NCBI GenBank assembly: GCA_011033025.1
Contig: WFMF01000006.1
Coordinates: forward strand, 930,001-994,000
Source of the DNA: Beroe forskalii
Lineage: Eukaryota > Ctenophora > Nuda > Beroida > Beroidae
Direction: 5' to 3'
DNA length: 64,000 bases
Each line of letters begins with the position of its first letter. Within the stretch, counting starts at the first letter, position 1. This document shows positions 12,901-52,174 of the stretch, one piece after another. Under the pieces are notes generated by a model. That model ran no database searches. It saw only the letters and a list, made by a program, of their open reading frames with translations, and was not told the DNA's origin. The position numbers were made by a program, and so were the translations under genes.

Positions 12901-15900
12901 AATTGGTATACTAACCACAAAATACAAAAATTAATTGATCAGCCAAAGGGAAGGCGGATAGGCAGTTGAATATGTAATCAAAATCTTCAGTTTTCGAGAC
13001 ATTTCCAAAAATGGTATAAAGTGTCGAATTTTTCCACAAAATTTTCAAAAAATCGACATTTGAATCAGATTTTAGTGGAATTTTCTTCCGATGGATGGAA
13101 TATGATGCAGGTGGTTACTGCTTGACTATTGACGGATAGCCATAGGAAACATAAGGCAGAAAACATAAGCCACAGTAACGCATGTAACCATAGCAGCTGC
13201 CAGCTGTAGAGGCATGCGTAGTTCGCAACCATAGTAACTCTAGTGACTAAATAATATATGGCACAAGTAAACATAAAAACACCCGGAAAACCGCCACGTA
13301 ACCATGGCAATACATATAACGCTTCCATGTAACCAGTGCAACATACAGTTGGGACACGCCTACACCGCCCGAAGCATGGAACACATCAAGGACGTTATCA
13401 GATACGGGAAACTGCAGTACAACCGCCAGTACGCCTCGATGGGTGAGTATTGGATACATCGTCAATTATTTATTAAGTTTATTTATTATTTTCAGTTATT
13501 TGATAAAACTCTGGATTTAATGAAGTATTTAACCATTCCCCCGACCGAAGTACACACCGGAAAAATCTTGTGGTTTTGGTTCATCTACGCATTTGGCTCA
13601 TGGTTAATTTCTTAATTTATAGTGTATATTGACCGAAGTTATGCATCAATCGTGTCCATTAACAAATCGGCCTCATACACTCCGGACTTATCTTGTATTG
13701 CTGATAAATGATTCTGATTATGATAGGGTCCTCACAATATTTCTATAATCAACGTCGTAATGGCATGAAGTATTTTGGATGATACGAGAATTCAGAGGTT
13801 GAGTAGTCTGAAGCTCTTTGAATTCCATGAATCATGAATAATTAATGACTTTGAAATGGAATATTGAAAATTGTTGCCTGAATGCCATAAGATTCACAGT
13901 TTAGTTTCCATGTATTTCATAGGCTTACTTAATCAAGATTAAACTTCAGATCATAAAATTTCAATCCATAAGAGCATCAGGATCAAATTCATTTTGATAT
14001 CAAATTTGGCAATTGCTTGGGCTTATTTATTTCTGGCAGTTTCGAGTTGTCAGTAAAGTATGACTATAAAAGTACTCAAAATTGGAGCTATGGAGCTGAG
14101 ATATAAATAAATCATAGCTCAACTCAGATTCAAAGGAGATCTCAATCAGTCATATTTTGTCAGCTAAGCTTGAAATAGCAACAATACCGCTTCCATGAAT
14201 TTCGGTATATAGGTATCGCTCATAAAGTGAGAAAATATTTCTTAAAATGGTAATGTTCACAGCTTTACAATTCAACCTTTTAGCCGCTACTGTTTTAATA
14301 AATTCGAATTCTGAACTGAGTAACTTTTAATAAAACTTTTTAAAGTTCTAAGTGCAACTGCCTGCGTATTATAGAAAAATACCCGAAACATCAGCTTATT
14401 AGGTAGAAATAGTCCCATAAATTTGAAATTAAATTGAAATATTTGAATTGAACAATTGGAACTTGCCGTTACAGTAACGAGTCAGGCAGCCACGTTTTTC
14501 ACTTACAGTCAGAAACAATCACAGTCAGACAGAAAGCAAGGGGGACAGGACCCTAGATTTTAAAGGACTTTTTTTTAACAGACGTGATCCAAGGGACAGG
14601 ATTTAAGACTCAATGACTTAAGGGACAGGATGTGTTAAAGGACAGGAATTTATAGCTTCTAGGACTTAAGGGACCGCTATTCATGCGGGATGATTATACT
14701 AAACTAAGACAGTCACATTCTGAGGTTCCATTCCACTGTATGCAGTACGGGATTCCTATTAAACTATTCGAGTAGGCTGGTATTTAATAGATTCTCTGGG
14801 ATCGACAAGCTTTCCCCATCAAATTTATAATATGATGTGATGGCAGAATTGAATTTGACGTTATTGACTACCTGCGTGCGTCGGGCCCTGAGATATAAAT
14901 GGATTACATTGCTGCCACGCCAAACGTTGAGCAATCTTTGGATTACGCAATTTACGTCGGGGATTTACATGATATACTAAATGGATATCAGTCTGATGAA
15001 TTCCAGTTTAATATCAATGTCGTTTGCTGAAATTTACGAATAAATTTTGTGACTGTAATGATTCATTAGATAACTGCTTCTGAGTTGTGGGTGCGGCATC
15101 ATTTTTCTAGGAAAAGCACCTAATATAGAGATCTTATTGACTACATAATGATTGCTAAAGCACAAAATCAGAATTACTGGAGAGAAATCGTTAATGAATT
15201 ATCAAATTTAGTACGGGTAGTACGCAACAAAGCGTAGAATTCCTCTGATTCCAATGATTTAACAATAACTCGATCGCATTTGCAGGACAAATAGCGCAGC
15301 GAGAAGACGGTGACACTATCGAAGACTCCCCGGAGGCTGAACAGAGCAAACCGACCCGACTCAGCAACCTCAGTTTCGACAGACTATTTTCCCACCTTTC
15401 CGGAACCAAACGGAAAGCTAAACGCGAACAAAAAGACTTCCGACGGCAGCGAGATAACCTGAGCGGGGTATCGCTGATCGGGTTCCAAGTGATGTGTCCC
15501 ACGCCCCGGGCCATCACACCCCGCTCCACCCCCGTCCCCACATCCCCTGCCAAGGAGGATCCCGGGATCGGGGACCGGACTATCACTCTCATCGAGATCT
15601 CCCAGAACGAGAAAGCCATGGAACAGTTTGTGCAGTACTGCATCAAGTCGTCCTTCATCAACGAACTTCTGTTTTGGCTGAACGTTGAGTACTCGATCAA
15701 AGTGGACCCAATGTCACGAAGTTTCCAGTTTCGGAACGTGAACATTCTCACCAAATACCTCGATACGAACACTGAGTATCACGTACAGATCCCCTCCAAA
15801 GCCCTGCCCAAGGCCTTCTTCAAGCAGCTAGACCGAAGAAGGAGATCTCGAAGGAAGTGCTGGCTTCAGCCCACGATTACGTGGAGAAGTACATTGACGA

Positions 15901-16354
15901 GCAGGTGGTTCCGCTGTTCGTGAAGAGCAAGTACGTGGAATGTCTCAAGGATAAGCCGCCGTTCCTACGACAGAACGTGTGTATTGACGTACGGATCAGT
16001 GGGTTTAAGAAGTGCTACGAAGAAACGGAGAAGTACTACACGTATGAGGTGGAGTGCCAGATCGAGTGCCAGGAAAAGTTCCTGATCTACAAGAAACTGG
16101 ACGATTTCGTGGAAAATCACCGGATTTTGTGCAATCGCTTTCCGAAGGAAAAGTTCCCGTGCTTGCCGTCCAGGACTATGTTACGACAGGAGAACAAGCG
16201 GAACGCCAAGAAAAGAATGAAGGACCTTTCCATATACCTGGAGAGTCTGTTGGAAATGCCAGCTCACGTGCTGCAGTCCAACGAAATGCGGCTGTTCCTG
16301 GACTTTGGGGCAGAAATGCCGGAGCCACCTGGCTCACCAAAATCAATTGGATGA
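9824..16354 (+). CDS. RGS domain plus PX-like domain protein (six exons, frameshifted)
   Basis: Exons: 9824-9958, 10188-10275, 11653-11755, 12313-12454, 13337-13442, 15286-16354. All five junctions are GT-AG and agree in phase. With one base restored in the last exon the total is 548 codons including the stop. Exons 1-5 encode a Ser/Arg-rich, probably disordered N-terminus. The last exon holds an RGS domain (residues ~265-380; ELLFWLNVEY core), which in this family accelerates GTP hydrolysis by G-alpha subunits. A PX-like domain follows (~390-530), typically phosphoinositide-binding. The architecture recalls sorting nexins with RGS and PX, but no PXA or nexin-C domain is visible. The ATG at 9824 lies 10 bases after a possible acceptor (9813), so further upstream exons are possible. 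Domains are seen from family motifs; membrane targeting is inference. Confidence 0.8.
10188..10275 (+). CDS. RGS-PX gene, exon 2
   Basis: Acceptor ttcag before AGC AGC, donor gtgggt. It starts in phase 0 and ends one base into a Gly codon. The product begins SSEESDDFSQMRRGVSRYGR. The Ser/Arg-rich composition continues from exon 1. Confidence 0.65.
10485..10680. repeat. Intronic array of X-box-like motifs
   Basis: Lies in intron 2 of the RGS-PX gene. Perfect GTTACCATGGCAAC occurs at 10535-10548 and 10628-10641. Diverged copies (GTTACCATAGCAAT, GTTACCATAGTAAG, GTTACCATTGTAAT, GTTACCGTAGCAAA) lie between. This matches the consensus X-box bound by RFX factors. Function is inference; it may simply be a minisatellite. 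Confidence 0.6.
11216..11410. repeat. ~21-bp minisatellite (CCTTGACACCAGCAGTAA)
   Basis: About nine degenerate units of the type CCTTGACACCAGCAGTAA within intron 2 of the RGS-PX gene. Open translations of the array are repeat artefacts. Confidence 0.75.
11440..11665 (+). repeat. 40-bp minisatellite that includes an exon acceptor
   Basis: Units of 40 bp carry ACATGTCCAGGTTTTGATGA. Copies are at about 11472, 11519, 11559, 11599 (with a short insertion after it) and 11650. The last copy is the 3' splice site and first codons of exon 3 (ccag, then gttttgatgat). Earlier units therefore carry look-alike acceptors. Because 40 is not a multiple of 3, their use would shift frame. Confidence 0.75.
11653..11755 (+). 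CDS. RGS-PX gene, exon 3
   Basis: Begins two bases into a Gly codon, completing the phase left by exon 2. It encodes GFDDRSSVSSKW onwards and ends two bases into a Ser codon before the donor gttaga. Its acceptor lies in the last unit of the 40-bp minisatellite, so the exact boundary is supported mainly by phase. Confidence 0.65.
12055..12290. repeat. 12-bp minisatellite (GACTGGTTGTAT)
   Basis: Degenerate units GACTGGTTGTAT/GACTAGTTGTAA fill the end of intron 3 up to about 20 bases before the exon-4 acceptor. A block including TGTTTAGTGTTTGTAATTAA is duplicated (about 12126 and 12242). Confidence 0.8.
12313..12454 (+). CDS. RGS-PX gene, exon 4
   Basis: Acceptor tattctcag, donor gtaaac. One base completes the Ser codon from exon 3; the exon ends in phase 0. 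It encodes a Ser/Thr/Tyr-rich segment (TDTLDSRTTSSASVRRPYNR onwards). No domain is recognised. Confidence 0.65.
13105..13340. repeat. Second cluster of X-box-like motifs
   Basis: GTAACCATAGCAGC, GCAACCATAGTAAC and GTAACCATGGCAAT lie just before exon 5. The acceptor itself reads GTAACCAG then TGCAAC, so the splice site sits inside one more motif-like copy. Related in sequence to the array at 10485-10680. Confidence 0.5.
13337..13442 (+). CDS. RGS-PX gene, exon 5
   Basis: Starts in phase 0 at TGC after aaccag and ends one base into a Gly codon before the strong donor gtgagt. The product begins CNIQLGHAYTARSMEHIKDV. The one-base phase matches the two-base start of the last exon exactly. Confidence 0.7.
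14515..14690. repeat. GGGACAGGA-rich short repeat
   Basis: Degenerate direct repeats of AAGGGACAGGATTTAAGACT in intron 5 of the RGS-PX gene. Confidence 0.5.
15286..16354 (+). CDS. RGS-PX gene, last exon with RGS and PX-like domains
   Basis: Acceptor ttgcag. The first part is read from 15288 in one frame up to FFKQL (15830). The rest continues in another frame from CCG at 15833 (PKKEISKEVLASAHDY). One base is missing between these points, splitting the RGS domain. The PX-like part has CQEKFLIYKKLDDF where the family normally has an Arg-Arg-Tyr motif. It continues with FPKEKFPCLPSR and a basic helix (NKRNAKKRMKDL). The end of the protein (PPGSPKSIG, stop 16352-16354) is encoded by the first unit of the 37-bp minisatellite. 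Confidence 0.85.
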
Positions 16355-18330
16355 GTATATCATTCCCTGGCTCACTCAAATCACAGAGATGAGCATTAAT
16401 TCTCTGGCTTACCCAAATCACTGGGCTGATCATTAATTCCCTGGCACACCCAAATCACTGGGCTGATCATTAATTCCCTGGCACACCCAAATCACTGGGC
16501 TGAGCATTAATTCCCTGGCACACCCAAATCACTGGGTTGAGTATTAATTCTCTGGCTCACCCAAATCACTGGGCTGAGCATTAATTGATAATTCCCTGGC
16601 ACACCCAAATCACTGGGCTGATCATTAATTCCCTGGCACACCCAAATCACTGGGCTAAGCATTAATTCCCTGGCACACCCAAATCACTGGGCTGAGCATT
16701 AATTCCCTGGCTCACCCGAATCAATGGGCCGAGCGTTAATTCCCTGGTTCACCCAAATCAATGGGCCGAGCGTTAATTCCCTGGCACACCCAAATCACTG
16801 AGATGAGCATTAATTCCCTGGCACACCCAAATCACTGGGCTGAGCATTAATTCCCTGGCTCACTCAAATCACTGGGCTGAGCATTAATTCCCTGGCTCAC
16901 TCAAATCACTGGGCTAAGCATTAATTCACTGGCTCACTCAAATCACTGGGCTGAGCATTAATTCACTGGCTCACTCAAATCACTGGGCTGAGCATTAATT
17001 CACTGGCTCACCCAAATCAATAGGCTGAGTATTAGTTCCCTGGCTCACCCAAATCAATAGGCTGAGTATATCATACCCTGGCTCACCCAAATCACTGAGA
17101 TGAGCATTAATTCCCTGGCTCACCCAAATCAATAGGCTGAGTATTAGTTCCCTGGCTCACCCAAATCACTGGGCTGAGTATATCATTTCCTGGTTCACCC
17201 AAATCACTTAGCAGAGCATCAATTCCCTGGCCCACTCAAATCACTTAGCTGAGTATTAATTCCCTGGCTCACCCAAATCACTGGGCTGAGTATTAGTTCC
17301 CTGGCTCACCCAAATCACTGGGCTGGGTATTAATTCCCTGGCTCACCCAAATCACTGGGCTGAGTATTAATTCCCTGGCTCACTCAAATCACTTAGCTGA
17401 GCATTAATTCCCTGGCTCACCCAAATCACTGGGCTGAGTATTAGTTCCCTGGCTCACCCAAATCACTGGGCTGAGTATTAGTTCCCTGGTTCACCCAAAT
17501 CACTGGGCTGAGTATTAATTCCCTGGCTCACCCAAATCACTGGGCTGAGTAATAATTCTCTGGCTCACCCAAATCACTGGGCTGAGTAATAATTCCCTGG
17601 TTCACCCAAATCACTGGGCTGAGTATTAGTTCCCTGGTTCACCCAAATCACTGGGCTGAGTATTAATTCCCTGGCTCACCCAAATCACTGGGCTGAGTAA
17701 TAATTCTCTGGCTCACCCAAATCACTGGGCTGAGTAATAATTCCCTGGTTCACCCAAATCACTGGGCTGAGTAATAATTCCCTGACTCACCCAAATCACT
17801 GGGCTTAGCATTAATTCCTTGACTCACCCAAATAATTGGGCTGAGTAATAATTCCCTGGTTCACCCATTCACCCAAATCACTGGGCTGAGTATTAGTTCC
17901 CTGGTTCACCCAAATCACTGGGCTGAGTAATAATTCCCTGACTCACCCAAATCACTGGGCTTAGCATTAATTCCTTGACTCACCCAAATAATTGGGCTGA
18001 GTAATAATTCCCTGGTTCACCCATTCACCCAAATCACTGGGCTGAGTATTAGTTCCTGGTTCACCCAAATCACTGGGCTGAGTAATAATTCCTGACTCAC
18101 CCAAATCACTGGGCTTAGCATTAATTCCTTGACTCACCCAAATAATTGGGCTGAGTAATAATTCCCTGGTTCACCCATTCACCCAAATCACTGGGCTGAG
18201 TATTAATTCTCTGGCACACTCAAATTACTGGGCTGAGCATTAATTGATAATTCCCTGGCACACCTAATTCATTGAGCTGAGTATATTATGATTCCCTGGC
18301 ACACCTAATTACTAAGCTGAGCATTTAAAA
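16325..18330. repeat. 37-bp minisatellite, ~2 kb, with higher-order structure
   Basis: Roughly 50 units of the type CCCTGGCTCACCCAAATCAC then TGGGCTGAGTATTAATT. The first unit is coding and holds the stop codon of the RGS-PX gene. Variants form patches (CACACCC early, CTCACTC, then CTCACCC). Between about 17785 and 18200 a ~156-bp higher-order unit, marked by the insert CCCATTCACCC, is repeated three times. Confidence 0.95.
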
Positions 18331-27415: not shown

Positions 27416-30400
27416 GTGGGAGGGTTCAAACACAAGGAAATGTTTTTCTGCCAGTCAATTTATTCAATTAATCGCCGACAATAAGAGAAGCTATGCAGTC
27501 AGATTTTTGCTAGAGATCAACAAATTGTCGAAACTCGAAAGTTCCTTCAATGTGAGACTTGATTAAAAGAAGTCACACTGACAGTTCGGACATGAAACTT
27601 TTTCAGGGAATTGTGGGGGTCTCGGTATTCTACAACATCATCTTCACTATTCTGAGGATTGCATTCGAACAGCTTGTAACGGTGAGGGGCGTTCTTTCTT
27701 TGTTTAAAACATCAAGTTGACTTTTATCTCATGAACTTCAGAAAATGATCATATAAAAACGCTTAGGTCATTTCAAAGCAATAACACATATTCCTAACTT
27801 TCCAGTATCGAGGTGTGTTCTGGATAGCAGACATTCTGACAGATATAATCTATGCAACTGATATGCTGGTACAAATGAACATATCCTACATTGATGATGG
27901 GATTTATGTGAGTACTTATCATCAAACACTTTCAAAAATTCCAGATTTCTATTCAGAAACCCCGAGCCCAATCTAAATAATTGAAAATTGCTTTTCACTT
28001 TTGATTCATAAATTGAACGAATAATATTCACCCAAAAGAAATTAAAACTGTCTATTCTCCTCCTGCACAGGTGACGGACAAGCAGCAACTGAGAGACAAC
28101 TACCTGCGAACGAAGCGCTTCACGTACGACGCTATCGCAATCCTACCACTCCCCTACCTCCTAGTCATGATGCGATTCTTTTACTGGGTGGTGGTCAACT
28201 TCATGGGTAGGTGAACTCGTGTAATATCCTTGACAAACCCCGATCAAAACCCACATGTACTCAAAAACACATATTTCCATTTTCGACAAAAACCAATCCA
28301 TAGTCGAGTGTTTCTGCCATTATTGATTGATGATTATCTCTCGCCAGAATCCTAAACATTCCTTTTCAAGTTTTTTCCAGTTTTAAAAACCCTACCGCAG
28401 GTCTACGAGATTTGGGTTTGGTATTCCCAGCATCGGAGATGACGCTCCTGGGTTTCTGCAGACTCCCACGCCTTATCAAATACAGGGCGCTCTCGGAGTT
28501 CTTCTCTAGCATGGAAAGGTACTTTCTAGCATCACGCTAATACAGCAATGCCATGAAAGGTTGGGCCAGTTTATTTAAGATCGAAAGAAACGAATAATTC
28601 AGACGACTCTGCCACCATTAATTACGACCATGATTATTGTACCAGTTCATAACAAACAAGTTATAGCCCCATGCTTCGCTCCCCTCGCAGCCGGACGAAT
28701 GCCCCTGACACGTTCCGAGCATTTAACCTGATCGTGTACCTCCTGCTGATCATCCACTGGATAACCTGTATCTACTACTGCATCTCCTGGTATGAAGGAT
28801 TCGGTATGAACACCTGGGTATACCCGGCTACCGAGGAGGGAGACGATGACCACAGGTTCTCAAGGTCAGTTGAACAAATTATCAGACAGTTAAAGCTGAT
28901 GTTTCATGTCATCATAACCATCCCTTAAATATTTTTGGTATGCCATTATTCTTCCTCGACAAAGACATTACACCTTTCATTATTCCCATCCCCCACCACC
29001 CCAGAAAGTACACGATGTGTTTCTACTGGTCCTTCCTGACTCTCACCACCATCGGCGGCAGCTCGGACCCTGAAACAAACCTGGAGTACCTGTTCACTGG
29101 TCTGACATTCTTCAACGGAGTGTTTGTCTTTGCCGCAGTGGTGGGAAACGTGGGTGATGTGATCAGTAACATGAACGCAGCCAGAACCGAGTTCCAGGCG
29201 AAAGTAGACGATATTAAGAGGTACAATTACATGATTATTGTGATTTTAGGGATTATCATGACTTTGTGCATTGGATTATCATTTTATTATTGTTTATGAA
29301 TGTTACTAATAATAGTAATGTAGGTTCCTAGGATAGGTTACTAGGATAGGTTACTAGGATAGGTTACTAGGATAGGTTACTGGGATCGGTTACTAGGATA
29401 GGTTACTAGGATAGGTTACTAGGATAGGTTACTAGGATAGGTTACTAGGATATGTTACTAGGATCGGTTATTGGGATAGGTTACTAGGATAGGTTACTAG
29501 GATATGTTACTAGGATATGTTACTAGGATAGGTTACTACTTACTAGGATAGGTTACTAGGATAGGTTACAAGGATAGGTTACTAGGATAGGTTACTAGGA
29601 TAGGTTACTTGGATAGGTTATTAGGATAGGTTACTAGGATAGGTAACTAGCATAGGTTACTAGGATAGGTTACTAGGATAGGTTACTAGGATAGGTTACT
29701 AGGATAGGTTAGTAGGATAGGTTACTAGGATAGGTTATTAGGATAGGTTACTAGGATAGGTTACTAGGATAGGTTACTAGGATAGGTTACTAGGACTAGC
29801 AGAACCCATGGCCTCCGGCCATCGTTCACAATTTTTTCGCTTCAGCAATTGGTACAGTATAATGCAGTACTGTAGTTCTTATCAGTGATGAGGTCATATT
29901 TTAATCGGGTGTGCCTACTCCTCTATGCGATGTCTATATGTCAGGTGGTGTCAAACGTCACTGGTACTCTGGTATGAACATTCCGATCATCGGCAATCGG
30001 CATGCTTGATTGGGTACTGAGTGGTGTCAGAAAAATCTGTGGCTATATATAACCCACCGGGCAGACAGAAATCATAAACCGGACAGACAGATATATATTT
30101 ATTTATTTATTTATTTATATATGAGGAAGAATTATAAGTAGTAAGATAGGTTAGTAGGATAGGTTACTAGGATAGGTTACTCCGCTCTCCACCTAAGGAA
30201 ATAGGTGAAGTCGAGGGAACATGCTCTCACCTCAGGGAGGAAGAGGTGGGTTCGGAAATTATTCAGGGTTCACAGCGATAGTTTTATGTGTCTTCCGCAA
30301 CTTTTTTAAAATAAATTTTTGAGCCGTCCATGTGTAAAAAAAGAAATTCATTTTTTGAAATAAATAAAGATTAATTTAATCCCGTTATTTACAATATATA

Positions 30401-33400
30401 ATAAAACACTGTAATTGCCAAGTTCCATTCAAAAATCAAAATAAATAAAAATGCAGCGAAAAGATGAAAGGCAAAAAAAGAACAGAAACCGTATAGTCCA
30501 TAACACCCTTACGACCAGCCTCAAATCTTTCAACAATTACTACTCTTCCAACAGCAGCAAATGACTTATACCATACCCTTAGTCCAAGGGTGGATCTACA
30601 TCCAATCCGGACCCTTACAGTTCCTTTTCAGGACATAAATTATCATGGAAAACACCGCAAAACCTACAACAGCGAATCCCGCTCCTATAACGTAAGCACT
30701 CGTCGTGTTGACCCCCTGGAGGGCCCTCTCCTCTGTCAGCCTGACAGCAGAGCACGGCTTGGGTCGAATCCCTTTAGCGCACTTCACATCTTGGTGTGTC
30801 GTATAGTTCCTGAACCTCACACCAAATCCCGGTTTACACCGAACAGTTACGAAGCTCCCGGGTAAGAAAAATGGCACCTTTTCGGGATTAACTATGTTGC
30901 CGTTTTTAACCCAAAACTGGGCCAAGGGACAGGAAGAGTCCACTGGTGGGGTAAGAAATCGAAGGGCCGTTAGGTACCTGTCCGACAATGTATGGGTTAC
31001 AACAACAGACATTGAAAGATAGTAGTCATTCCCGTAAAGGGGAGCAGTGACTTCGTACATACACGTTGAGGTTAGAAATGTGCTACTCCCTTCTGTAACA
31101 CGGAATCCTGTGAAATGGTCGGTAAAATTTCTTTTTTCTTTCACGAAGATAGCTGCATTCCCCTCCACGATATCCCATTCTAATCTCCACTGAGAATTGA
31201 ACTTGGATATCTCAATAAGCGAGTTTGACTCGGCTTGAGATCCCCCTACCCACTTGAATTCCCACGTATCAGCAATCTGGCATGGTCTCCAGGCTAGACG
31301 ATAACCGTACTTTGCGGCATTATTCGTCATGAAATCGTCAGTGGCCGTGAGACACCTGGTCCCATTGCTATCTCCCTTGATCAGTATGCCTGTTCTACTC
31401 TCTTCCACCACCCGATCTACGCTTCCCAAACACTGCAGACAGGCCATTTCACCCACCATCACAACTGGACTGGTATTCATACGTAGCTGCTGTTTATCAA
31501 AATAACCGTCATACTCAAGCGAACAAAACCCCGACACTAAGTGGAATTTGAAGTATTGGCACTGCCTCTTGTACCTACAGTAATTGTAGCAGGACTTCAG
31601 ACTGCCCGCCCTGAAGTGCTCTAAGACTATAGAGACGTTCAGAGTACCGGCAGTGCTGACACATTGATCATAATTGACTGGCATTCCGACATGATTCGTG
31701 GTGATGGCAGCTTTTGTAACCCATGTTCCATCTTGAGTTGCAGGCATTGCGTCATGGACACGATGATCATCCCCAATCCGATTAGGGGAACCCAATTCCG
31801 ATAAGGGTCCGGCAGGCCTATCGAGACCATCATCGGCACCATAAACTCGAAAGAAACTAAAAGGCACGAGAATAGTCAGAAGCAACATCTTTGGAACTTT
31901 CTTCTATTCAGTGAGCAGCTTTCCTCTTCTTGATAATATAAAATTTCCAACCTACAAAAGGAAATTAAATAAAAAATTTGATGGTCAGGCTATATTAGGA
32001 CAGAATTAATCAAGCAGAGCGCCCCCATCATCAGAAAGATTCGCTTGATTGTGGGCATGAACAACGCATCTTGAGCTCATAGATGAGGCTTAGAGAATTG
32101 AGCTTTCCGGGCGAAACAATTGCAATCGAAGCAACGCTTTTGTAGAAGAAGTTGAATTATTAAAATCGGAGTATTATAATTGTGTAGGTGAGTAATGAAC
32201 GAATCAAAATATTAATGCTATCTACATGATAGAACTGATCCAGTGCTCAAGATTCGTAAACTTTTATACCGAACGTAGCAATGAAAAATAGAAATAGAAT
32301 ATAAAGTCAAATAACAACATTTAATGTCTCTGAAACTAAGCCTCTTATTGTTTATAAAGGGGTTAGCAACCTCAAGACTTTGTCGCAACCTCATACACAA
32401 AAAACTTCGAACAATGAGATATGAAAAGCTTGGCAGCAAAGTTCAAGTTGTGCAATAAGCTCGGATCTGCAATTTAATGTTCGTTGGGTTAGTTCCTCCC
32501 TGAACGGGCTGGTCATTATCTAATATGTGATGAAACATCACCGACTTCAAGATGCTTATGTTTCATTCATTCATAAAGATATTTATGCCAAAAACTAATG
32601 CCCTCATTCAGCTGGTCCTGTGGACAAAAATCGAATCATTTTTGAACCAATTTAACCGGCCCCTTGAACAAAAAGTTTTCGAGCAGTTGCCAAACCAAAA
32701 AAAATTTGCAAAAAACAGCCACAATAACATCTCATACATAGTGATCGAAAATATCCCGGGTTCGATTTCTTGCCATTCCCAATGAGCTACGGGTGAAAGA
32801 TACCTAGGTATCTCAAGCCTATGCCTATCCCTCCTGAGGATATCCTCAAGAAAATGGCTCAACGTGCCAGGCGGAAGCAGAATCCTCGCACCAGAGCACC
32901 TCCAACCCTTGCTGACCTCCACCTTTTCCCTTGAACCTGAATACTGCCACACCCTCAGACAAGCGGACATGATCCTCCATGCTTCTTATGAGGGGAGGGT
33001 GATCAACTACCAGTGCCCAGTGGTCCAGTGACATGTGATTAGTTAAGCTTGATGACTGGGATAAGTAATTAGCTGCTGCCGACCACGCGTCCACCCTGTG
33101 GGGATTTGCCAACCTTACGTCCACCCTGGTTTTCCGTCGCCGACCTCGCGTCTACCGACCCCGTGTCCCACGACCCCGTGTCCAGTTCCCGTTTCGCACG
33201 GGAAAACACTCTAACCCGCACTTTTATTGGAATTTGAAACAAGCGTAAATAAGCGTCGCATGGTATTACCCGCATCGAAGGGTATTGGCACCTTGCAACT
33301 GTAATAAATTGTCGGATCAAGAATAATCCCCGAGACCCAGGATAAATAAATGGTGGAATAAAATGGCAAAGAGTAGGGCCACTTCAATTAGGATGACGTA

Positions 33401-34541
33401 TTGGCATGAATTTGTAAACTCGCAGTCCTTGAAAAGCTTTTTTGTCCATTTTGCGACACTTTCTATAGCTATTGTATTAATGTCCTCGGCTGACGGTCCA
33501 GCTGACCGAGTATATGGTATAATGATGCCCATTCTGCTAATCCCTTTGTCAACCCCTTCCCAGTTTTGAGCAATATCCACCCACCACCTTACTTCCCACC
33601 CAACGTGAAGTAGTGGCAACTAGGGGACCCCAACTATTATTCATAGCGAAGTGCTTCGAAACAAGTTAACGATTCAATTCTATTCTCAAGAAATTATGCG
33701 TATTTCACAGATAAATGTCCCTTGATCGAGACACATGGTTGATGGTTACCTGATCTCTCTTTGAAGGTATATCAAGGTTTCCATTTAAGGTACATGGTAC
33801 GCCAAATCTTCCTTTCAAGGCACATGGTACACCTAATTTCCCTTTGAAGGTACATGGTACGCCATATCCCTCTTTATTAAGGTACATGGTAATCTAGGGT
33901 TGTGTTGAGAAACACACTTAGTATATACCAACATCTGACACCATAGCTGTTCGTACTGAACGGAACCTCTCAGCTTCAGTTCCTTGTTTAACATGCCGTT
34001 CAGCAAGGACACCCACTAAGCTCGCCAGGCTAGGCCATATACGAAAAACCATAGGGACAGAAGTTGGTTTTATACCTTAAGGATCTTGAAGACACTTCCT
34101 TGTGTTTGAAATCACATCTCTCTTTCAAAGTACATGGTACATCACATCTCTCTTTCAAGGTACATGGTACATCACATCTCTCTTTTAAGGTACATGGTAC
34201 ATCACCTCTCCCTTTTAAGGTACATGGTACATCACATCCCTCTTTTAAGGTACATGGTACATCACATCTCTCTTTCAAGGTACATGGTACATCACATCTC
34301 CCTTTTAAGATACATAGTACATCACATCTCTCTTTCAAGGTACATGGTACATCACCTCTCTATTTCAAGGTACATGGTACATCACCGGGTACCGGATCCC
34401 CTCCAGAGGAGGGTTAAGAAGTGGTTTGACTACTCGTGGGCCAGGACCCATGGTGTGGATGAGACTTCCCTACTCGAGACACTACCAGATAGACTGAGAG
34501 CAAGGATACAGGTCCAGATACATCTCAAAACACTCAAAAAG
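27245..34541 (+). CDS. Cyclic-nucleotide-gated ion channel subunit (partial; pre-S1 to C-linker)
   Basis: Exons: 27245-27415, 27607-27681, 27806-27907, 28071-28206, 28401-28518, 28691-28864, 29005-29220, 34370-34541. All junctions are GT-AG and agree in phase. The translation follows CNG channels in order: VDPTGDLYYSW before S1, S1-S3, a short Arg/Lys S4, S5 with HWITCIYY and GFGMNTWVYP, the pore helix and filter (TLTTIGG), and S6 (VVGNVGDVISNMNA). TEFQAKVDDIKRYM and VKKWFDYSW follow in the C-linker. Such plasma-membrane cation channels are opened by cGMP or cAMP in sensory cells. The filter Gly replaces the Glu of typical alpha subunits, as in beta subunits, while S6 and the C-linker are alpha-like. 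The cyclic-nucleotide-binding domain was not found, so the gene is either incomplete here or interrupted by the satellite DNA. Confidence 0.9.
27607..27681 (+). CDS. CNG channel, S1 exon
   Basis: 25 codons, phase 0 at both ends, acceptor ttttttcag and donor gtgagg. The product GIVGVSVFYNIIFTILRIAF is transmembrane segment S1. Confidence 0.85.
27806..27907 (+). CDS. CNG channel, S2 exon
   Basis: 34 codons between ttccag and gtgagt, phase 0 at both ends. FWIADILTDIIYATDMLVQM is the conserved S2 region, with the acidic residues typical of the family. Confidence 0.85.
28071..28206 (+). CDS. CNG channel, S3 exon
   Basis: Begins VTDKQQLRDNYLRTKRFTYD, the conserved loop before S3. It ends one base into a Gly codon at gtaggt. 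Confidence 0.9.
28401..28518 (+). CDS. CNG channel, S4 exon
   Basis: Contains FCRLPRLIKYRALSEFF, the S4 voltage-sensor-like segment with the LPRL motif of this family. It ends two bases into a codon before gtactt. Confidence 0.85.
28691..28864 (+). CDS. CNG channel, S5 and turret exon
   Basis: TFRAFNLIVYLLLIIHWITC (S5) followed by IYYCISWYEGFGMNTWVYP. Both are close to the conserved sequence of animal CNG channels. Phase 2 at both ends. Confidence 0.92.
29005..29220 (+). CDS. CNG channel, pore and S6 exon
   Basis: YWSFLTLTTIGGSSDPE is the pore helix and selectivity filter. FVFAAVVGNVGDVISNMNAA is S6 and TEFQAKVDDIKR starts the C-linker. The filter carries Gly at the position of the alpha-subunit pore Glu. 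Donor gtacaa, phase 2. Confidence 0.95.
29320..29795. repeat. 13-bp minisatellite (TAGGATAGGTTAC)
   Basis: About 35 units in the channel intron, starting 100 bases after the pore exon. A few stray units lie at about 30140-30181. Confidence 0.95.
29796..30595. other. Intronic DNA downstream of the antisense gene
   Basis: Contains an ATTT microsatellite (about 30092-30118). No clear minus-strand polyadenylation signal was recognised. Nothing else can be supported. Confidence 0.4.
30596..31888 (-). CDS. Apple/PAN-like single-pass membrane protein, nested in the channel intron
   Basis: An uninterrupted 430-codon ORF. Residues 1-18 are a signal peptide (MLLLTILVPFSFFRVYGA). Residues ~76-153 form a Cys-rich apple/PAN-like module (CYNYCRYKRQCQYFKFHLVS, GFCSLEYDGYF, CLQC). 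Residues ~165-260 look like a beta-trefoil or other beta-rich lectin-like region (RLAWRPC, TWEFKWVGG). A partial sushi-like stretch follows (PGSFVTVRCKPGFGV). A transmembrane helix lies at ~399-420, then a short basic tail (KRNCKGPDWM). There are several N-glycosylation sequons. It is likely a cell-surface receptor or adhesion protein; the ligand is unknown. A strong acceptor lies upstream on this strand (ttccttttgtag, exon from about 31952), suggesting an untranslated first exon. It lies wholly within an intron of the oppositely oriented channel gene. Confidence 0.85.
   Translation of the reverse strand: MLLLTILVPFSFFRVYGADDGLDRPAGPLSELGSPNRIGDDHRVHDAMPATQDGTWVTKAAITTNHVGMPVNYDQCVSTAGTLNVSIVLEHFRAGSLKSCYNYCRYKRQCQYFKFHLVSGFCSLEYDGYFDKQQLRMNTSPVVMVGEMACLQCLGSVDRVVEESRTGILIKGDSNGTRCLTATDDFMTNNAAKYGYRLAWRPCQIADTWEFKWVGGSQAESNSLIEISKFNSQWRLEWDIVEGNAAIFVKEKRNFTDHFTGFRVTEGSSTFLTSTCMYEVTAPLYGNDYYLSMSVVVTHTLSDRYLTALRFLTPPVDSSCPLAQFWVKNGNIVNPEKVPFFLPGSFVTVRCKPGFGVRFRNYTTHQDVKCAKGIRPKPCSAVRLTEERALQGVNTTSAYVIGAGFAVVGFAVFSMIIYVLKRNCKGPDWM
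31889..33764. other. Intronic DNA, no gene recognised
   Basis: Holds the presumed 5' region of the antisense gene. ORFs of 100-120 codons on the minus strand (32608-32970, 33317-33619) have no domain or splice support. Positions 33080-33185 repeat CCGACC..CGTCTACCG-type words. Confidence 0.35.
33765..33893 (+). repeat. Older outlying copies of the 30-bp acceptor repeat
   Basis: Four diverged units of 30-33 bp with TTTAAGGTACATGGTACGCC and similar. They resemble the main array 34111-34385, separated from it by about 210 bases of unrelated DNA. Confidence 0.7.
34111..34385 (+). repeat. 30-bp tandem array of splice-acceptor units
   Basis: Nine units, each exactly 30 bp: ATCACATCTCTCTTTCAAG then GTACATGGTAC. 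Each has a pyrimidine tract, AG and the codons for Arg-Tyr-Met-Val-His. The last unit (34351-34380) supplies the real acceptor and first codons of the channel C-linker exon. As 30 is a multiple of 3, the array is open in the channel frame from 34134 onwards. Use of an upstream AG would add multiples of ten residues (YMVHHISLSR-like). Confidence 0.9.
34370..34541 (+). CDS. CNG channel, C-linker exon
   Basis: The leading G completes the Arg codon from the pore exon. YMVHHRVPDPLQRRVKKWFD then YSW follows, matching the family pattern YM..R.V...L..RV..WFDY.W. The exon continues to RARIQVQIHLKTLKK and the donor gtagga (phase 0). Starting the exon at the last array unit, rather than at ctccag 34406, is supported by the Tyr-Met match, the length and the phase. 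Confidence 0.85.
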
Positions 34542-34835
34542 GTAGGAGAATTCGGCTAATGATCTAATGCTCCAATGCCAAAAAAACAAAGATTAATAAT
34601 GTCAGAATCAGGAATTATCGAAGTTTGAACTATTCATGGGACCTCCTATATAACTTAGTTACAAAGACAAAAAACTCCCTTTAGACAGTGCAATGTTGGG
34701 GGGGGGGGGGTCCACCAGCCAACGGCCGTCAGCCAATTGGAAATTTTATAGACGGTTGGCCGTTTTTTATTTTTGATATTTATCGCCCTTAGGGGGGGGG
34801 GGGTCCAATCAAAAAACTCCCAGAGAGAAAGTTGC

Positions 34836-34904
34836 TTGCAATAATTCTAAGAACACATTTGAGTACATTAAATGTACTCAAATGTGTTCTTAGAATTATT
34901 GCAA
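34836..34904. repeat. Perfect palindrome 1 (34-nt arms)
   Basis: Arms 34836-34869 and 34871-34904 are exact inverse copies around a single central base. The arm includes GAACACATTTGAGTACATT. A transcript would form a long perfect hairpin. Confidence 0.9.
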
Positions 34905-34950
34905 TTTCGATATTAGTGTCTTCAAATTTTGAAGACACTAATATCGAAAT
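34904..34950. repeat. Perfect palindrome 2 (23-nt arms)
   Basis: Arms 34904-34926 and 34928-34950 around one base, sharing its first base with palindrome 1. The arm includes CGATATTAGTGTCTTCAAA. Confidence 0.9.
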
Positions 34951-35974
34951 CACAAAAAAATGTATATATAAGATATTTTAACTCATTTTCTTACAGTCTG
35001 GTACTTTTAGCAACCATAGACCAGGATCATCCTACTGTTAACATCTCAATAGGTTCACCAAGAGGTATTGAATATGTTCCAGTGGCCAGGAAAGTATTGG
35101 AGTGCTTGAAAGGAAAATATCCTTGCATGAGGGCTCCTCAGTTCTGTTAAAAGAGCTTGCAAATTAAGACAGCGGCACAGAGTCCTGTAAGGAATCACAC
35201 GCCCTGACATCGGATTATTGGAACCAAAGGAGGCTTCCTAGTAAAATCCACTCCTGCTCGCACTACTGGGGACTTTCCACTGGACTTATATCAACTTTCA
35301 ATAACTTCTATTACCTCCTCAGCCCTGTCTCGCCTTAAAAACTGCCTTTTTTCCATGGACGACCTATGGAAGACATACCATACTTCAGAATCCCGAAATC
35401 AGCCCTTTTCTGTCTGTTATGGGGGGTTAGAATCGCGTTTTTCGGCTTAAAAACTGCCTTTTTTCGCCCCTTATTGGGCGTAGATGTCTCATGGGTGGTC
35501 AAATAGAAGTGTATCTGCTCATAAATTATGCGCCTGTAACCACTGAACCAATGATATTCGCCAGTTTTCCTTTGTTTTCCTGTAAAATCCAAAAAACCCT
35601 ATTTTTACCTCTCAAAACAGTCATGATCCAGGACGTTCTTCATTTCTGAGGCACCCAAGATCCAAAATCAAAAAGCTTTGGCCGATTGAGCTGAAAATTT
35701 GCACGCCATCCATGGACGACCTAAGGAAGACATACCATACTTCAGAATTCCGAAATCAGCCATTTTCTGTCTGTTATGGGGGGGTTAAAATCGCGTTTTT
35801 CGGCTTAAAAATACCTTTTTTTCGCCCTTATTGGGCGTAGATGTCTCATGGTGGTCAAATAGAAGAGTATCTGGTCATAAATTATGCGCCTGAAACCACT
35901 GAACCAATGATATTCGCCAGTTTTCCTTTGTTTTCCTGTAAAATCCAAAAAACCCTATTTTTTCCTGTTCCCAA

Positions 35975-37760: not shown

Positions 37761-40700
37761 ATTATATACATAACACTTCACGTGAAATATAATTCCCAAA
37801 AGAAAAGAATAAATAAATAAAATCCTATAAAACCTTTGGCCGATTGAGTATCCAACATATTTTTTAAAAAAATAGTCATAGAATGATATGAAAATATGTC
37901 TCACAATGAATCAAAATCATTGTAAAAACCATGATATCTGTCTGTTATTATTGTCAATCATGTTTATGGTTTGTGTCGCCTTTTTCCGCCCCTGTTTTAT
38001 GAAAGCCCGGCGGATCCCTCATGGGCCTCTCAAAGATTCTAGTACAGTCCGTCAGCGTGAAGCGTAATGAAACCACTGAACCAATAACAGTGTGATATTT
38101 CCTTTGTTTTCCTATAAGTCGAAAAAACCTTATGAAATTGGTTGCCTCTTTGCCCCAACCTCCTGTGGTTGAAAATACAAGTGGGGTGAGGGTACCATGT
38201 TCCACATTCAGGACTCGATCATTGTACTCGCGTCAATTCAAACTTTTAGGAGAGGGAAATATAAAGCGCTTGCATAACAACGAAGATTTATAAAATTGAT
38301 TCAATGATGTTAGTATTCTGTTGTGGGGGTAATTGATAGCGTTTTCGCGATTGTATCATGATTTGGATGGTCACTTTATGCTTTATCGTCAACTAATCAT
38401 GTCAAAAATAAGTCGGACAACGATTGTCGATCAAATGACGGCGTGTTTTAATACCAGCTCCAGGGAACAGGAAATTAAGCGCCTGCATACGGGAACAACG
38501 GGCACAAGAAATAAGCCTGCAGGCGCATTTCTTGTTACCTCTCAAAACAGTGATCCAGGACGTTCCTCATTTCTGAGGCACCCAAGATCCGAAATCAAAA
38601 AGCTTTGGCCGATTGAGCTGAAAATTTGCAAGCCATCCATGGACGACCAAAGGAAGACATACCATACTTCAGAATCCCGAAATCAGCCATTTTCTGTCTG
38701 TTATGGGGGGTTAGAATCAAGTTTTTCGGCTTAAAAACTGCCTTTTTCGCCCCTTATTGGGCGTAGATGTCTCATGGGTGGTCAAATAGAAGTGTATCTG
38801 GTCATAAATTATGCGCCTGAAACCACTGAACCAATGATATTCGCCAGTTTTCCTTTGTTTTCCTGTAAAATCCAAAAAAACCCTATTTGTACCTCTCAAA
38901 ACAGTGATCCAGGACTTTCTTCAATTCTGAGGCACCCAAGATCCGAAATCGAAAAGGTTTGGCCGATTGAGCTGAAAATTTGCACTCCATCCATCGACGA
39001 CCTAAGAAAGACATACCATACTTCAGAATCCCGAAATCAGCCATTTTCTGTCTGTTATGGAGGGTTAAAATCGCGTTTTTCGGCTTAAAAACTGCTTTTT
39101 TTCGCCCCTTATTGGGCGTAGATGTCTCATGGGTGGTCAAATAGAAGTGTATCTGGTCATAAATTATGCGCCTGAAACCACTGAACCAATGATATTCGCC
39201 AGTTTTCCTTTGTTTTCCTGTAAAATCCAAAAACCCTATTTTTACCTCTCAAAACAGTGATCCAGGACGTTCTTCATTTCTGAGGCACCCAAGATCCAAA
39301 ATCGAAAAGCTTTGGCCGATTGAGCTGAAAATTTGCACGCCATCCATGGACGACCTAAGAAAGACATACCATACTTCAGAATCCCGAAATCAGCCATTTT
39401 CTGTCTGTTATGGGGGTTAAAATCAAGTTTTTCGGCTTAAAACTGCCTTTTTCGCCCCTTATTGGGCGTAGATGTCTCATGGGTGGTCAAATAGAAGGGT
39501 ATCTGGTCATAAATTATGCCTGAAACCACTGAACCAATGATATTCGCCAGTTTTCCTTTGTTTTCCTGTAAAATCAAAAACCCTATTTTACCTCTCAAAA
39601 CAGTGATCCAGGACGTTTTTCATTTCTGAGGCACCCAAGATCCGAAATCAAAAAGCTTCGGCCGATTGAGCTGAAAATTTGCACGCCATCCATGGACGAC
39701 CTAAGGATGACATACCATACTTCAGAATCCCAAAAACAGCCTTTTTCTGTCTGTTATGGAGGGTTAGAATCGCGTTTTTCGGCTTAAAAACTGCCTTTAT
39801 TCGCCCCTTATTGGGCGTAGATGTCTCATGGGTGGTCAAATAGAAGTGTATCTGGTCATAAATTATGCGCCTGAAACCACTGAACCAATGATATTCGCCA
39901 GTTTTCCTTTGTTTTCCTGTAAAAATCAAAAAAACCCTATTTTGTACCCTCTCAAAACAGTGATCCAGGACGTTCTTCATTTCTGAGGCACCCAAGATCC
40001 GAAATCGAAAAGCTTTTGGCCGATTGAGCTGAAAATTTGCACGCCATCCATGGACGACCTAAGAAAAACATACCATACTTCAGAATCCCGAAATCAGCCA
40101 TTTTCTGTCTGTTTGGGGGTTAAATCGTGTTTTTCGGCTTAAAACTGCCTTTTTCGCCGCTTATTGGGCGTAGATGTCTCATGGGTGGTCAAATAGAAGT
40201 GTATCTGGTCATAAATTATGTGCCTGAAACCACTGAACCAATGATATTCGCCAGTTTTCCTTTGTTTTCCTGTAAAATCCAAAAAACCCTATTTGTACCT
40301 CTCAAAACAGTGATCCAGGACGTTCTTCATTTCTGAGGCACCCAAGATCCAAAATCGAAAAGCTTTGGCCGATTGAGCTGAAAATTTGCACGCCATCCAT
40401 GGACGACCTCAGAAAAACATATACCATACTTCAGAATCCCGAAATCAGCCATTTTCTGTCTGTTATGGGGGGGGGGGTTAAAATCGCGTTTTCGGCTTAA
40501 AAACTGCCTTTTTTCGCCGCTTATTGGGCGTAGATGTCTCATGGGTGGTCAAATAGAAGTGTATCTGGTCATAAATTATGCGCTTGAAACCACTGAACCA
40601 ATGATATTCGCCAGTTTTCCTTTGTTTTCCTGTAAAATCCAAAAAACCCTATTTTACCTCTCAAAACAGTGATCCAGGACGTTCTTCATTTCTGAGGCAC

Positions 40701-41269
40701 CCAAGATCCGAAATCAAAAAGCTTTGGCCGATTGAGCTGAAAATTTGCACGCCATCCATCGACGACCTAAGGAAGACATACCATACTTCAGAATCCCGAA
40801 ATCAGCCATTTTCTGTCTGTTATGGGGGGTTAGAATCGCGTTTTTCGGCTTAAAAACTGCCTTTTTTCGCCCCTTATTGGGCGTAGATGTCTCATGGGTG
40901 GTCAAATAGAAGTGTATCTGGTCATAAATTATGCGCCTGAAACCACTGAAACCAATGATATTCGCCAGTTTTCCTTTGTTTTCCTGTAAAATCCAAAAAA
41001 CCCTATTTTTACCTCTCAAAACAGTGATCCAGGACGTTCTTCATTTCTGAGGCACCCGAGATCCGAAATGGAAAAGCTTTGGCCGATTGAGCTGAAAATT
41101 TGCACGCCATCCATGGACGACCTAAGGAAGACATACCATACTTCAGAATCCCGAAATCAGCCATTTTCTGTCTGTTATGGGGGGTTAAAATCGCGTTTTT
41201 CGGCTTCAAAACTGCCTTTTTTCGCCCCTTATTGGGCGTAGATGTCTCATGGAGGCCTCCTGACACACG

Positions 41270-48729: not shown

Positions 48730-51700
48730 ATAGAAGGATATCTGATCATAAATAATGGGCCTGAAACCACTGAACCAATGATATTCGCCAGTTTTCCTTT
48801 GTTTTCCTGTAAAATCCAAAAACCCTATTTTTACCTCTCAAAACAGTGATACAGGACGTTCTTCGTTTCTGAGGCACCCAAGTTCAGAAAACAAAAAGCT
48901 TTGGGCTGAGGATGACGAGAAAAAATCAGCTGAAAATTTGCACGCCATCCATGGACGACCTGAGGAAGACATACCACTACCAATGATATTCGCCAGAATT
49001 TGTCCCGAAATCAGCCATTTTCTGTCTTTGTTATGGGGTTAAAATCGCGTTTTTCGGCTTAAAACTGCCTTTTTTCGCCCCTTATTGGGCGTAGATGTCT
49101 CATGGGTGGTCAAATAGAAGTGTATCTGGTCATAAATTATGCGCCTGAAACCACTGAACCAATGATATTCGCCAGTTTTCCTTTGTTTTCCTGTAAAATC
49201 CAAAAACCCTATTTGTACCTCTCAAAACAGTGATCCAGGACGTTCTTCATTTCTGAGGCACCCAAGATCCGAAATCGAAAAGCTTTGGCCGATTGAGCTG
49301 AAAATTGTGTTTTGCATAAAAACGCCATCCATGGACGACCTCAGTGGAAAAACATATACCATACTTCAGAATCCCGAAATCAGCCATTTTCTGTCTGTTA
49401 TGGGGGGGCACCAAAGATCAAAATCGCGTTTTTGGCTTAAAACTGCCATTTTTTCGCCGCTTATTGAATCCTGTAGATGTCTCATGGGTGGTCAAATAGA
49501 AGTGTATCTGGTCATAAATTATGCGCTTGAAACCACTGAACCAATGATATTCGCCAGTTTTCCTTTGTTTTCCTGTAAAATCCAAAAAACCCTATTTGTA
49601 CCCTCTCAAAACAGTGATCCAGGACGTTCTTCATTTCTGAGGCACCCAAGATCCGAAATCGAAAAGCTTTGGCCGATTGAGCTGAAAATTTGCACGCCAT
49701 CCATCGACGACCTAAGAAAGACATACCATACTTCAGAATCCCGAAATCAGCCATTTTCTGTCTGTTATGGGGGGTTAAAATCGCGTTTTTCGGCTTAAAA
49801 CTGCCTTTTTCGCCCCTTATTGGGCGTAGATGTCTCATGGGTGGTCAAATAGAAGTGTATCTGGTCATAAATTATGCGCCTGAAACCACTGGAACCAATG
49901 ATATTCGCCAGTTTTCCTTTCTTTTCCTGTAAAACCAAAAACCCTATTTTTTACCTCTCAAAACAGTGATCCAGGACGTTCTTCATTTCTGAGGCACCCG
50001 AGATCCGAAATGGAAAAGCTTTGGCCGATTGAGCTGAAAATTTGCACGCCATCCATGGACGACCTAAGGAAGACATACCATACTTCCAGAATCCCGAAAT
50101 CAGCCATTTTCTGTCTGTTATGGGGTTAAAATCGCGTTTTTCGGCTTCAAAACTGCCTTTTTTCGCCCCTTATTGGGCGTAGATGTCTCATGGGTGGTCA
50201 AATAGAAGGATATCTGATCATAAATAATGGGCCTGAAACCACTGAACCAATGATATTCGCCAGTTTTCCTTTGTTTTCCTGTAAAATCCAAAAAACCCTA
50301 TTTTTACCTCTCAAAACAGTGATACAGGACGTTCTTCGTTTCTGAGGCACCCAAGTTCAGAAAACAAAAAGCTTTGGCCGATTGAGCTGAAAATTTGCAC
50401 GCCATCCATGGACGACCTGAGGAAGACATACCATACTTCAGAATCCCGAAATCAGCCATTTTCTGTCTGTTATGGGGGGTTAAAATCGCGTTTTTCGGCT
50501 TAAAAACTGCCTTTTTTCGCCCCTTATTGGGCGTAGATGTCTCATGGCTGGTCAAATGGAAATGTATCTGGTCATAAATTATGCGCCTGAAACCACTGAA
50601 CCAATGATATTCGCCAGTTTTCCTTTGTTTTCCTGTAAAATCAAAAAACCCTATTTTTTCCCTCCCCATTGGCCTTTTTGTAAAACAAAAAGGCAAATAG
50701 GAGGGTTGGCAGAGATCGTGGTCTGGGAGGGTGAGAAATGGAATATGTGTATATCAGGTCCAGTTTTGCAATACAACTACTGTAATTTCTGGAAAGTGCC
50801 CGGATTGCTCCTTTATAATATCAGTCGCGAAAATGTCCCTCCGTCCGTCCCTCCGTCTGTCCCCATATCTCATAAATATTCAAAATAAAGAATTTCTTGA
50901 TTCATGGAGCTATCGGTTTTTAAATCTTATAGGTTGATCTGGCCCAACCGTGCCGCATGCTCGAACTCCTAAATTATGATAAGTTCTAAATTTAATTAGG
51001 CTGTTGAATAATTCGTGTCTTAGAAAGTCAAAATCTTAGTTATGAGTTGGGCGGTGGATTGGAGGTGAAGGCTTCGTTTTGTAACAATTAGTTTTAGTAC
51101 CAAACTGCATAACTATTAGACTTTGCTGAATTCGACTAATTTTTGACAAATACTGTTCGCTGTGAAAGACGAATATTGCTATTTGGAACAAGAGACAGCA
51201 TTGAAACAGAAAAACAAAAAGCACGAAATTTGAAAATCAGATGAAAATAAGTGATATCAAATAGTTTAATTGATCTGAAAAATCCATGGCCTGCATGAAT
51301 AAACATACAATTTGATTCAGAAATAAACCATTTCTGGGTTATGGAATTTAAAAGACTGAATCCTCCTGTTTTGCCCATTGCGTAGATGTCATGGGTGGAA
51401 ATAAGTGGCTGGTCATATGCGCCTGAAACCACTGAACCAATGATATTCGCCAGTTTTCCTGTTTTCCCCAATATTTTACCTCTAAACAGTGATCCAGACG
51501 TTCTTCATTTCTGAGGCACCCAAGATCCGAAATCGAAAAGCTTTGGCCGATTGAGCTGAAAATTTGCACGCCATCCATGGACGACCTAAGAAAGACATAC
51601 CATACTTCAGAATCCCGAAATCAGCCATTTTCTGTCTGTTAAGGGGGTTAAAACCGCGTTTTTCGGCTTAAAAAGTGCCCTTTTCGCCCCTTTTTGGGCG

Positions 51701-52174
51701 TAGATGTCTCATGGGTGGTCAAATAGAAGTGTATCTGGTCATAAATTATGCGCCTGAAACCACTGAAACAATGATATTCGCCAGTTTTCCTTTGTTTCCT
51801 GTAAAACAAAAACCCTATTTTTACCTCTCAAAACAGTGATCCAGACGTTCTTCATTTCTGAGGCACCCAAGATCCGAAATCGAAAAGCTTTGGCCGATTG
51901 AGCTGAAAATTTGCACGCCATCCATGGACGACCTAAAGAAAGACATACCATACTTCAGAATCCCGAAATCAGCCATTTTCTGTCTGTTATGGGGGTTAAA
52001 ATCGCGTTTCGGCTTAAAACTGCCTTTTTCGCCTTAGGGCGTGATCTCATGGGTGGTCAAATAGAAGTGTATCTGGCATAAACATGTGCCTGAAACCACT
52101 GAACCAATGATATTCGCTAAGTTTTCCTTTGTTTTCCTGTAAAATCCAAAAACCCTATTTTTACCTTCAAAACA
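48730..52174. repeat. Satellite A, block 2
   Basis: The same ~354-bp unit and orientation as block 1. It is interrupted by element E (50655-51300) and ends at the assembly gap. Units near 51.4-52.1 kb carry many small deletions. Confidence 0.95.
50655..51300 (-). mobile_element. Dispersed element E inserted in satellite A
   Basis: Satellite sequence breaks off after CCCTATTTTTTCCC at about 50660 and resumes near 51365. The insert is the reverse of 37140-37760, beginning with the GGCCTTTTTGTAAAACAAAA hairpin. Confidence 0.65.

Follow-up and report, generated by a model that had tools for sequence, protein, structure and literature searches.

The channel gene and the array at its C-linker exon

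The window, the whole 64-kb stretch of DNA analysed here, has a GC content of 39%, is rich in repeats and carries seven exons (A to G) of an ion channel gene on its forward strand. The spliced exons A-G matched CNGA3 at 2e-76 in the PDB search and the Pfam family Ion_trans at 7.9e-22. Exons A-F were placed by eye from AG and GT signals together with homology. The reading frame is continuous through all seven exons, with exon E ending at 28864, and the six introns between them are all GT-AG. Sequence searches against the PDB place the pore and S6 exons 5' of a 30-bp tandem array and the C-linker exon 3' of it. The best PDB match of the latter exon is CNGA3 (E 5.6e-13), in agreement with the original prediction, which had read it as a CNG channel C-linker. 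The features of this region, in which a slash marks a splice boundary, are as follows.

29005-29220, + strand: exon F, preceding the array (pore, S6, ending ...FQAKVDDIK), with the phase 2 donor AGAG/GTACAA
29221-34369, + strand: intron holding the array, 5149 bases, from its length, boundaries and the alignment
about 33771-33891, + strand: about four older, degenerate units of the array minisatellite (TRF row 33779-33891, 3.7 copies)
34111-34380, + strand: nine 30-bp units (TRF and unit table)
34129-34130, + strand: AG of unit 1, shifted by one base; its use is predicted to cause a frameshift leading to a stop
34351-34386, + strand: terminal unit, with AG at 34368-34369 and an exonic part that runs on into the exon; probable authentic acceptor
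34370-34541, + strand: exon G, the CNG C-linker (YMVHHRVPDPLQRRVKKWFDY...TLKK), from PDB matches, gapless alignment and the donor GT at 34542

Over the junction 29220/34370, the alignment of the joined sequence FQAKVDDIK-RYMVHHRVPDPLQRRVKKWFDY with CNGA3 contained no gaps. With the terminal unit as the acceptor, the score against CNGA3 was 260.5 bits. Addition of one unit lowered it to 245.9 bits, a loss of about 15 bits, and opened a 10-residue gap at the junction. The gapless match and the loss caused by the added unit point to the terminal unit as the authentic acceptor, so that, as far as homology can tell, the authentic boundary would be the edge of the array. The same unit had been proposed as the functional acceptor by phase and by family match. 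Another candidate acceptor, at 34406, was rejected: manual reading puts it out of frame with the phase 2 donor at 29220. On a splice-site matrix it scored 7.6, close to the 8.6 of the terminal unit.

Two observations concern the rest of the channel. The pore segment in exon F (29005-29220) has the sequence TTIGGSSDPE, opposite TTIGETPPPV in CNGA3. It thus lacks the filter glutamate, as do beta-type subunits, despite a similarity that is highest to alpha subunits. Downstream of the C-linker, no convincing match to a cyclic nucleotide-binding domain was obtained (PDB to 41000; Pfam on the + strand to 64000; tblastn). The best tblastn row for this domain covered 21 residues at 34574-34636 with an E value of 0.11 and was taken as chance. 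Thus no convincing exon for the domain lies in the 29 kb of 34542-64000, though the introns between exons A-F are short (124-194 bases), and the exons in question may lie beyond the window end.

Anatomy and coding capacity of the nine units

The array occupies 34111-34385 with a period of 30, 9.2 copies and 92% matches (TRF). The consensus unit consists of a branch-point-like TCAC, a pyrimidine tract, the acceptor AAG/G and the first bases of the exon, corresponding to the codons RYMVHH. The original prediction described nine exact units, in each of which a pyrimidine tract and an AG precede the first codons of the exon. The number and the content hold, whereas the exactness does not: with the nine units in register, 13 of 270 bases differ from the consensus, and only units 2, 6 and 8 (3/9) equal it throughout. 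An AG is present in all nine units and occupies the same place in eight of them; the exception is unit 1, in which a single change shifts the AG by one base, to 34129-34130. The tract at -15 to -4 contains 10-12 pyrimidines out of 12 bases in every unit. In the exon frame each unit encodes Tyr-Met-Val-His-His after Arg, except that unit 1 has Lys for Arg and unit 7 has Ile for Met. Unit 7 also contains an extra, weak TAG at 34316-34317, out of frame on manual reading. The acceptor triplet is AAG in all nine units of the array and CAG in all six upstream exons A-F. Each unit has one TNAY site, the TCAC, located 15 bases before the G of the AG (16 in unit 1), and the full YTNAY occurs nowhere in the stretch scanned for branch points. 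The branch-point-like sites neither single out nor exclude the terminal unit as the acceptor.

A second block, absent from the original prediction, lies upstream at about 33771-33891. Its units differ from the consensus at 5-8 of 30 positions and are 73-82% identical to it by blastn. Outside the array and this decayed block, the consensus unit was found nowhere else in the 64-kb window (three rotations, both strands, up to 8 mismatches of 30), and a dispersed minisatellite or mobile element was rejected on this ground. The RNA of 34080-34430 showed no unusual folding, with a z value of 0.39 and 68 of 100 shuffles folding equally well or better; Rfam at gathering thresholds and ARAGORN gave no matches within the 64-kb window.

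The exon frame is open from after the TGA at 34107-34109 to 34541, so the claim of an open frame through the array is borne out. It had further been claimed that any upstream AG would give an in-frame protein longer by a multiple of 10 residues. This applies to eight of the nine units: splicing to unit 2 is predicted to add 70 residues in frame, with 10 fewer for each later unit until unit 8 adds 10, and use of unit 1, because of its shifted AG, to cause a frameshift to a premature stop. How much weight does the open frame carry? In 20000 trials that applied one and the same permutation of letters to every unit, the exon frame was free of stops in 48% and at least one frame in 93%. Periods divisible by three are also common in the window (22 of 56 hand-listed representative repeat periods). 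The differences among the units comprise 10 nonsynonymous and 3 synonymous changes, close to the proportions of 0.72-0.74 and 0.21-0.26, respectively, expected in the absence of constraint; there is no sign of coding constraint among the units. A comparison of the unit core with the spacer gave no significant indication of selection, either in differences (3/126 versus 10/144, Fisher p 0.09) or in distinct columns (3/14 versus 5/16, p 0.69). With chance sufficient to account for the open frame and no coding constraint apparent, the in-frame property is no evidence of function.

Splicing and origin of the array

On the splice-site matrix, the acceptors of units 2-8 scored 6.2-9.9, the terminal unit 8.6 and the six other acceptors of the gene 2.8-12.2. 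A difference in acceptor strength therefore cannot by itself keep the upstream copies silent, and the sequence gives no reason why the last unit should win. These scores, the eight units in frame and a branch-point-like TCAC at a fixed distance in nearly every unit would suit a spliceosome that chooses among units 2-9, producing isoforms that gain 10 residues, or a multiple of 10, at the join of S6 and the C-linker, with unit-number polymorphism altering the set. Repeats that supply alternative splice sites exist. Turri, Cuin and Porter reportedly described in 1995 an interferon-induced transcript, that of the IFI6 gene, in which a minisatellite supplies several splice donors; it too would provide repeated splice sites, donors there and acceptors here. 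The intronic VNTR of ABCA7 is built of 25-bp units that each begin with a donor, and a single unit can be kept in the mRNA; it differs in being on the donor side, with an out-of-frame unit and RNA evidence. The human exon-intron boundary repeats considered below are a further case. Against isoform production stand the lack of coding constraint together with the chance expectation of an open frame, the interruption of an otherwise gapless conserved stretch by one added unit, and the lancelet arrays described below, which are reported to leave splicing undisturbed. We consider isoform production from the array unlikely. Slightly less likely still is a full ladder of in-frame acceptors, in which from none to seven additional blocks of 10 residues would be inserted between S6 and the C-linker in a graded series of channels, over a range set by the repeat number of the individual or cell.

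The join of S6 and the C-linker is important for gating, and isoform production, if real, would be notable because the insert falls there. Were the upstream copies used, repeat-number variation would directly alter the gating region of an ion channel. The array offers a compact natural test of how the spliceosome chooses among eight nearly identical in-frame acceptors, and likewise of the ways in which minisatellites at exon boundaries can make proteins longer or become introns.

In seven of the nine units the AAG is followed immediately by GT (GTACAT), giving a juxtaposed AG/GT; the arrangement is changed in units 1 and 7. Such units could act as ratchet points of recursive splicing, in which an upstream unit is used first, regenerates the donor AAG/GTACAT and is removed in a second step. 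The regenerated donor scored 5.6 on the splice-site matrix, within the 3.9-9.6 of the seven donors of the gene and above the 3.9 of the exon F donor. On the other hand, GTACAT departs from the usual donor consensus, and the intron measures 5149 bases, whereas the ratchet points of flies are placed in long introns by the literature. Recursive splicing is very improbable here. A further idea, that the intron was born from an AGGT duplication in which its own start was copied from that of the exon, was rejected, as the resemblance between the two starts was equalled or exceeded at 4 of the 41 remaining AGGTA sites and 13 of the 186 remaining AGGT sites and is not significant.

Tandem repeats cover 12934 of 64000 bases (20.2%) of the window. 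Random placement of 51 intervals was repeated 5000 times; in 69% of these trials at least one interval crossed an exon boundary of A-G (14 in all), a figure that ignores purifying selection. In so repeat-rich a window it is no surprise that a repeat should meet an exon edge, and an ordinary intronic minisatellite might have reached the exon by chance and partly overwritten it, with no duplication of the boundary. The array itself is not chance. Furthermore, its unit contains Tyr-Met in the right phase, and CNGA3 has the same two residues at the same place; the exon edge is therefore more simply the source of the unit than its product, and an overwritten exon seems hardly credible.

Tandem duplications of exon-intron boundaries, called mirages, have been reported for the lancelet genes BflGb6, BflGb9, Adh3, TnC and PGBD5. 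According to the lancelet globin paper, BflGb6 has 6 and 3 units in two haplotypes, so that length varies between them. Adh3 data and RT-PCR suggest in the same paper that regular splicing is undisturbed, though many units keep AG and GT. The authors remark that these dinucleotides could serve as cryptic sites, and they propose that mirages become new introns whose repeats then degenerate. In a second report, the splice sites of lancelet PGBD5 carry repeats of 60 and 108 bp, and the mirages of Adh and TnC are cited as giving no aberrant mRNAs (PMC3902484). The likeness to the present array is close: tandem units lie over an intron-exon boundary with splice signals in many of them, and in BflGb6 they run from the last part of an intron into the first part of an exon, as is the case here. 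The differences are the gene, a CNG channel, and the unit length, 30 bp as compared with 150-160 bp in BflGb6 and 10-72 bp in Adh3. In our array the units span the intron-exon boundary, the AG is found in 9/9 units and in frame in 8/9, and the juxtaposed AG/GT is kept in 7/9; by anatomy alone, the array would belong to the lancelet phenomenon. The decayed upstream units fit the published idea of repeats degrading inside introns.

We therefore favor, as the probable reading, a mirage-type minisatellite whose terminal acceptor is mainly used and whose upstream copies are mostly spliced out as intron. Under such a mechanism, the 3' end of the intron and the adjoining 5' end of the exon would have been duplicated locally in tandem, and the duplicated boundary unit would have expanded and been homogenised, presumably by slippage or unequal exchange. 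The spliceosome would mainly join the end of exon F at 29220 to the terminal copy at 34370, probably as the dominant event. The upstream copies would mostly leave with the intron, with low and noisy use at most, and the copy number of the units is expected to vary. Some points count against this mirage-type reading. The upstream in-frame units 2-8 score like the terminal unit. Human boundary repeats often give alternative transcripts that retain the repeat: variable repeats at exon-intron boundaries of segmentally duplicated human genes can turn into new introns, and a repeat-keeping transcript also exists for 66% of these modifications (PMC2812944). Finally, in one gene model of lancelet PGBD5 two of the repeats form an exon and so count as coding; the authors discount this model for lack of mRNA support (PMC3902484).

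The human boundary repeats resemble the array in having units of about 30 bp on average but arise within exons and are tied to intron formation, whereas most of the present units fall within an intron under the gene structure deduced here. NAGNAG and other tandem alternative splice sites share adjacent acceptors and small in-frame length changes; those covered by TassDB2 are 2-12 bases apart, as compared with 30 bases and nine copies here, a spacing outside the NAGNAG range. Intron gain by tandem duplication is reported in flies (PMC2891723), and the regulatory minisatellites in worm introns differ in anatomy from a boundary array. The original prediction knew of no described case of its kind. 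For boundary minisatellites this does not hold, as the lancelet mirages are in print; for the splicing ladder, none proven by RNA was announced in the titles and abstract openings among the matches listed in the literature on acceptor arrays and mirages. The boundary minisatellite is, judged by anatomy, a kind already known, to which the array would add one gene, a channel, with a short unit.

Other repeats and open reading frames in the window

The intron that holds the 30-bp array also holds a 13-bp array of 37 copies (29321-29795), which starts 100 bases past the exon F donor, and a nested, single-exon ORF of 430 aa on the minus strand (30596-31888). The ORF has no Pfam match; by eye, its N terminus resembles a signal peptide and its C-terminal part includes a hydrophobic stretch. 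Two overlapping palindromes lie back to back at 34836-34958, with arms of 34 nt (100%) and 31 nt (90%) and a 1-nt spacer each, just downstream of runs of 13 G at 34698 and 12 G at 34792. A satellite of about 350 bp forms three arrays (38535-41252, 49003-50658 and 51474-52174), with related pieces near 35540-35940.

Upstream of the channel gene, an RGS-like ORF (under the Pfam cut-off) and a PX-like ORF adjoin in different frames at 15489-16354 with no visible intron, an arrangement that might reflect a sorting-nexin-like gene copied without its introns or disrupted by a frameshift. About 52 units of 37 bp form an array (16328-18290) that begins inside the coding end of the PX-domain ORF and is possibly a second array of the boundary type. 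An in-frame stop ahead of the sole nearby GT, found by manual reading, counts against a splice donor there. GAGT is kept in 28 of the 52 units, and GAGC is present in 16.
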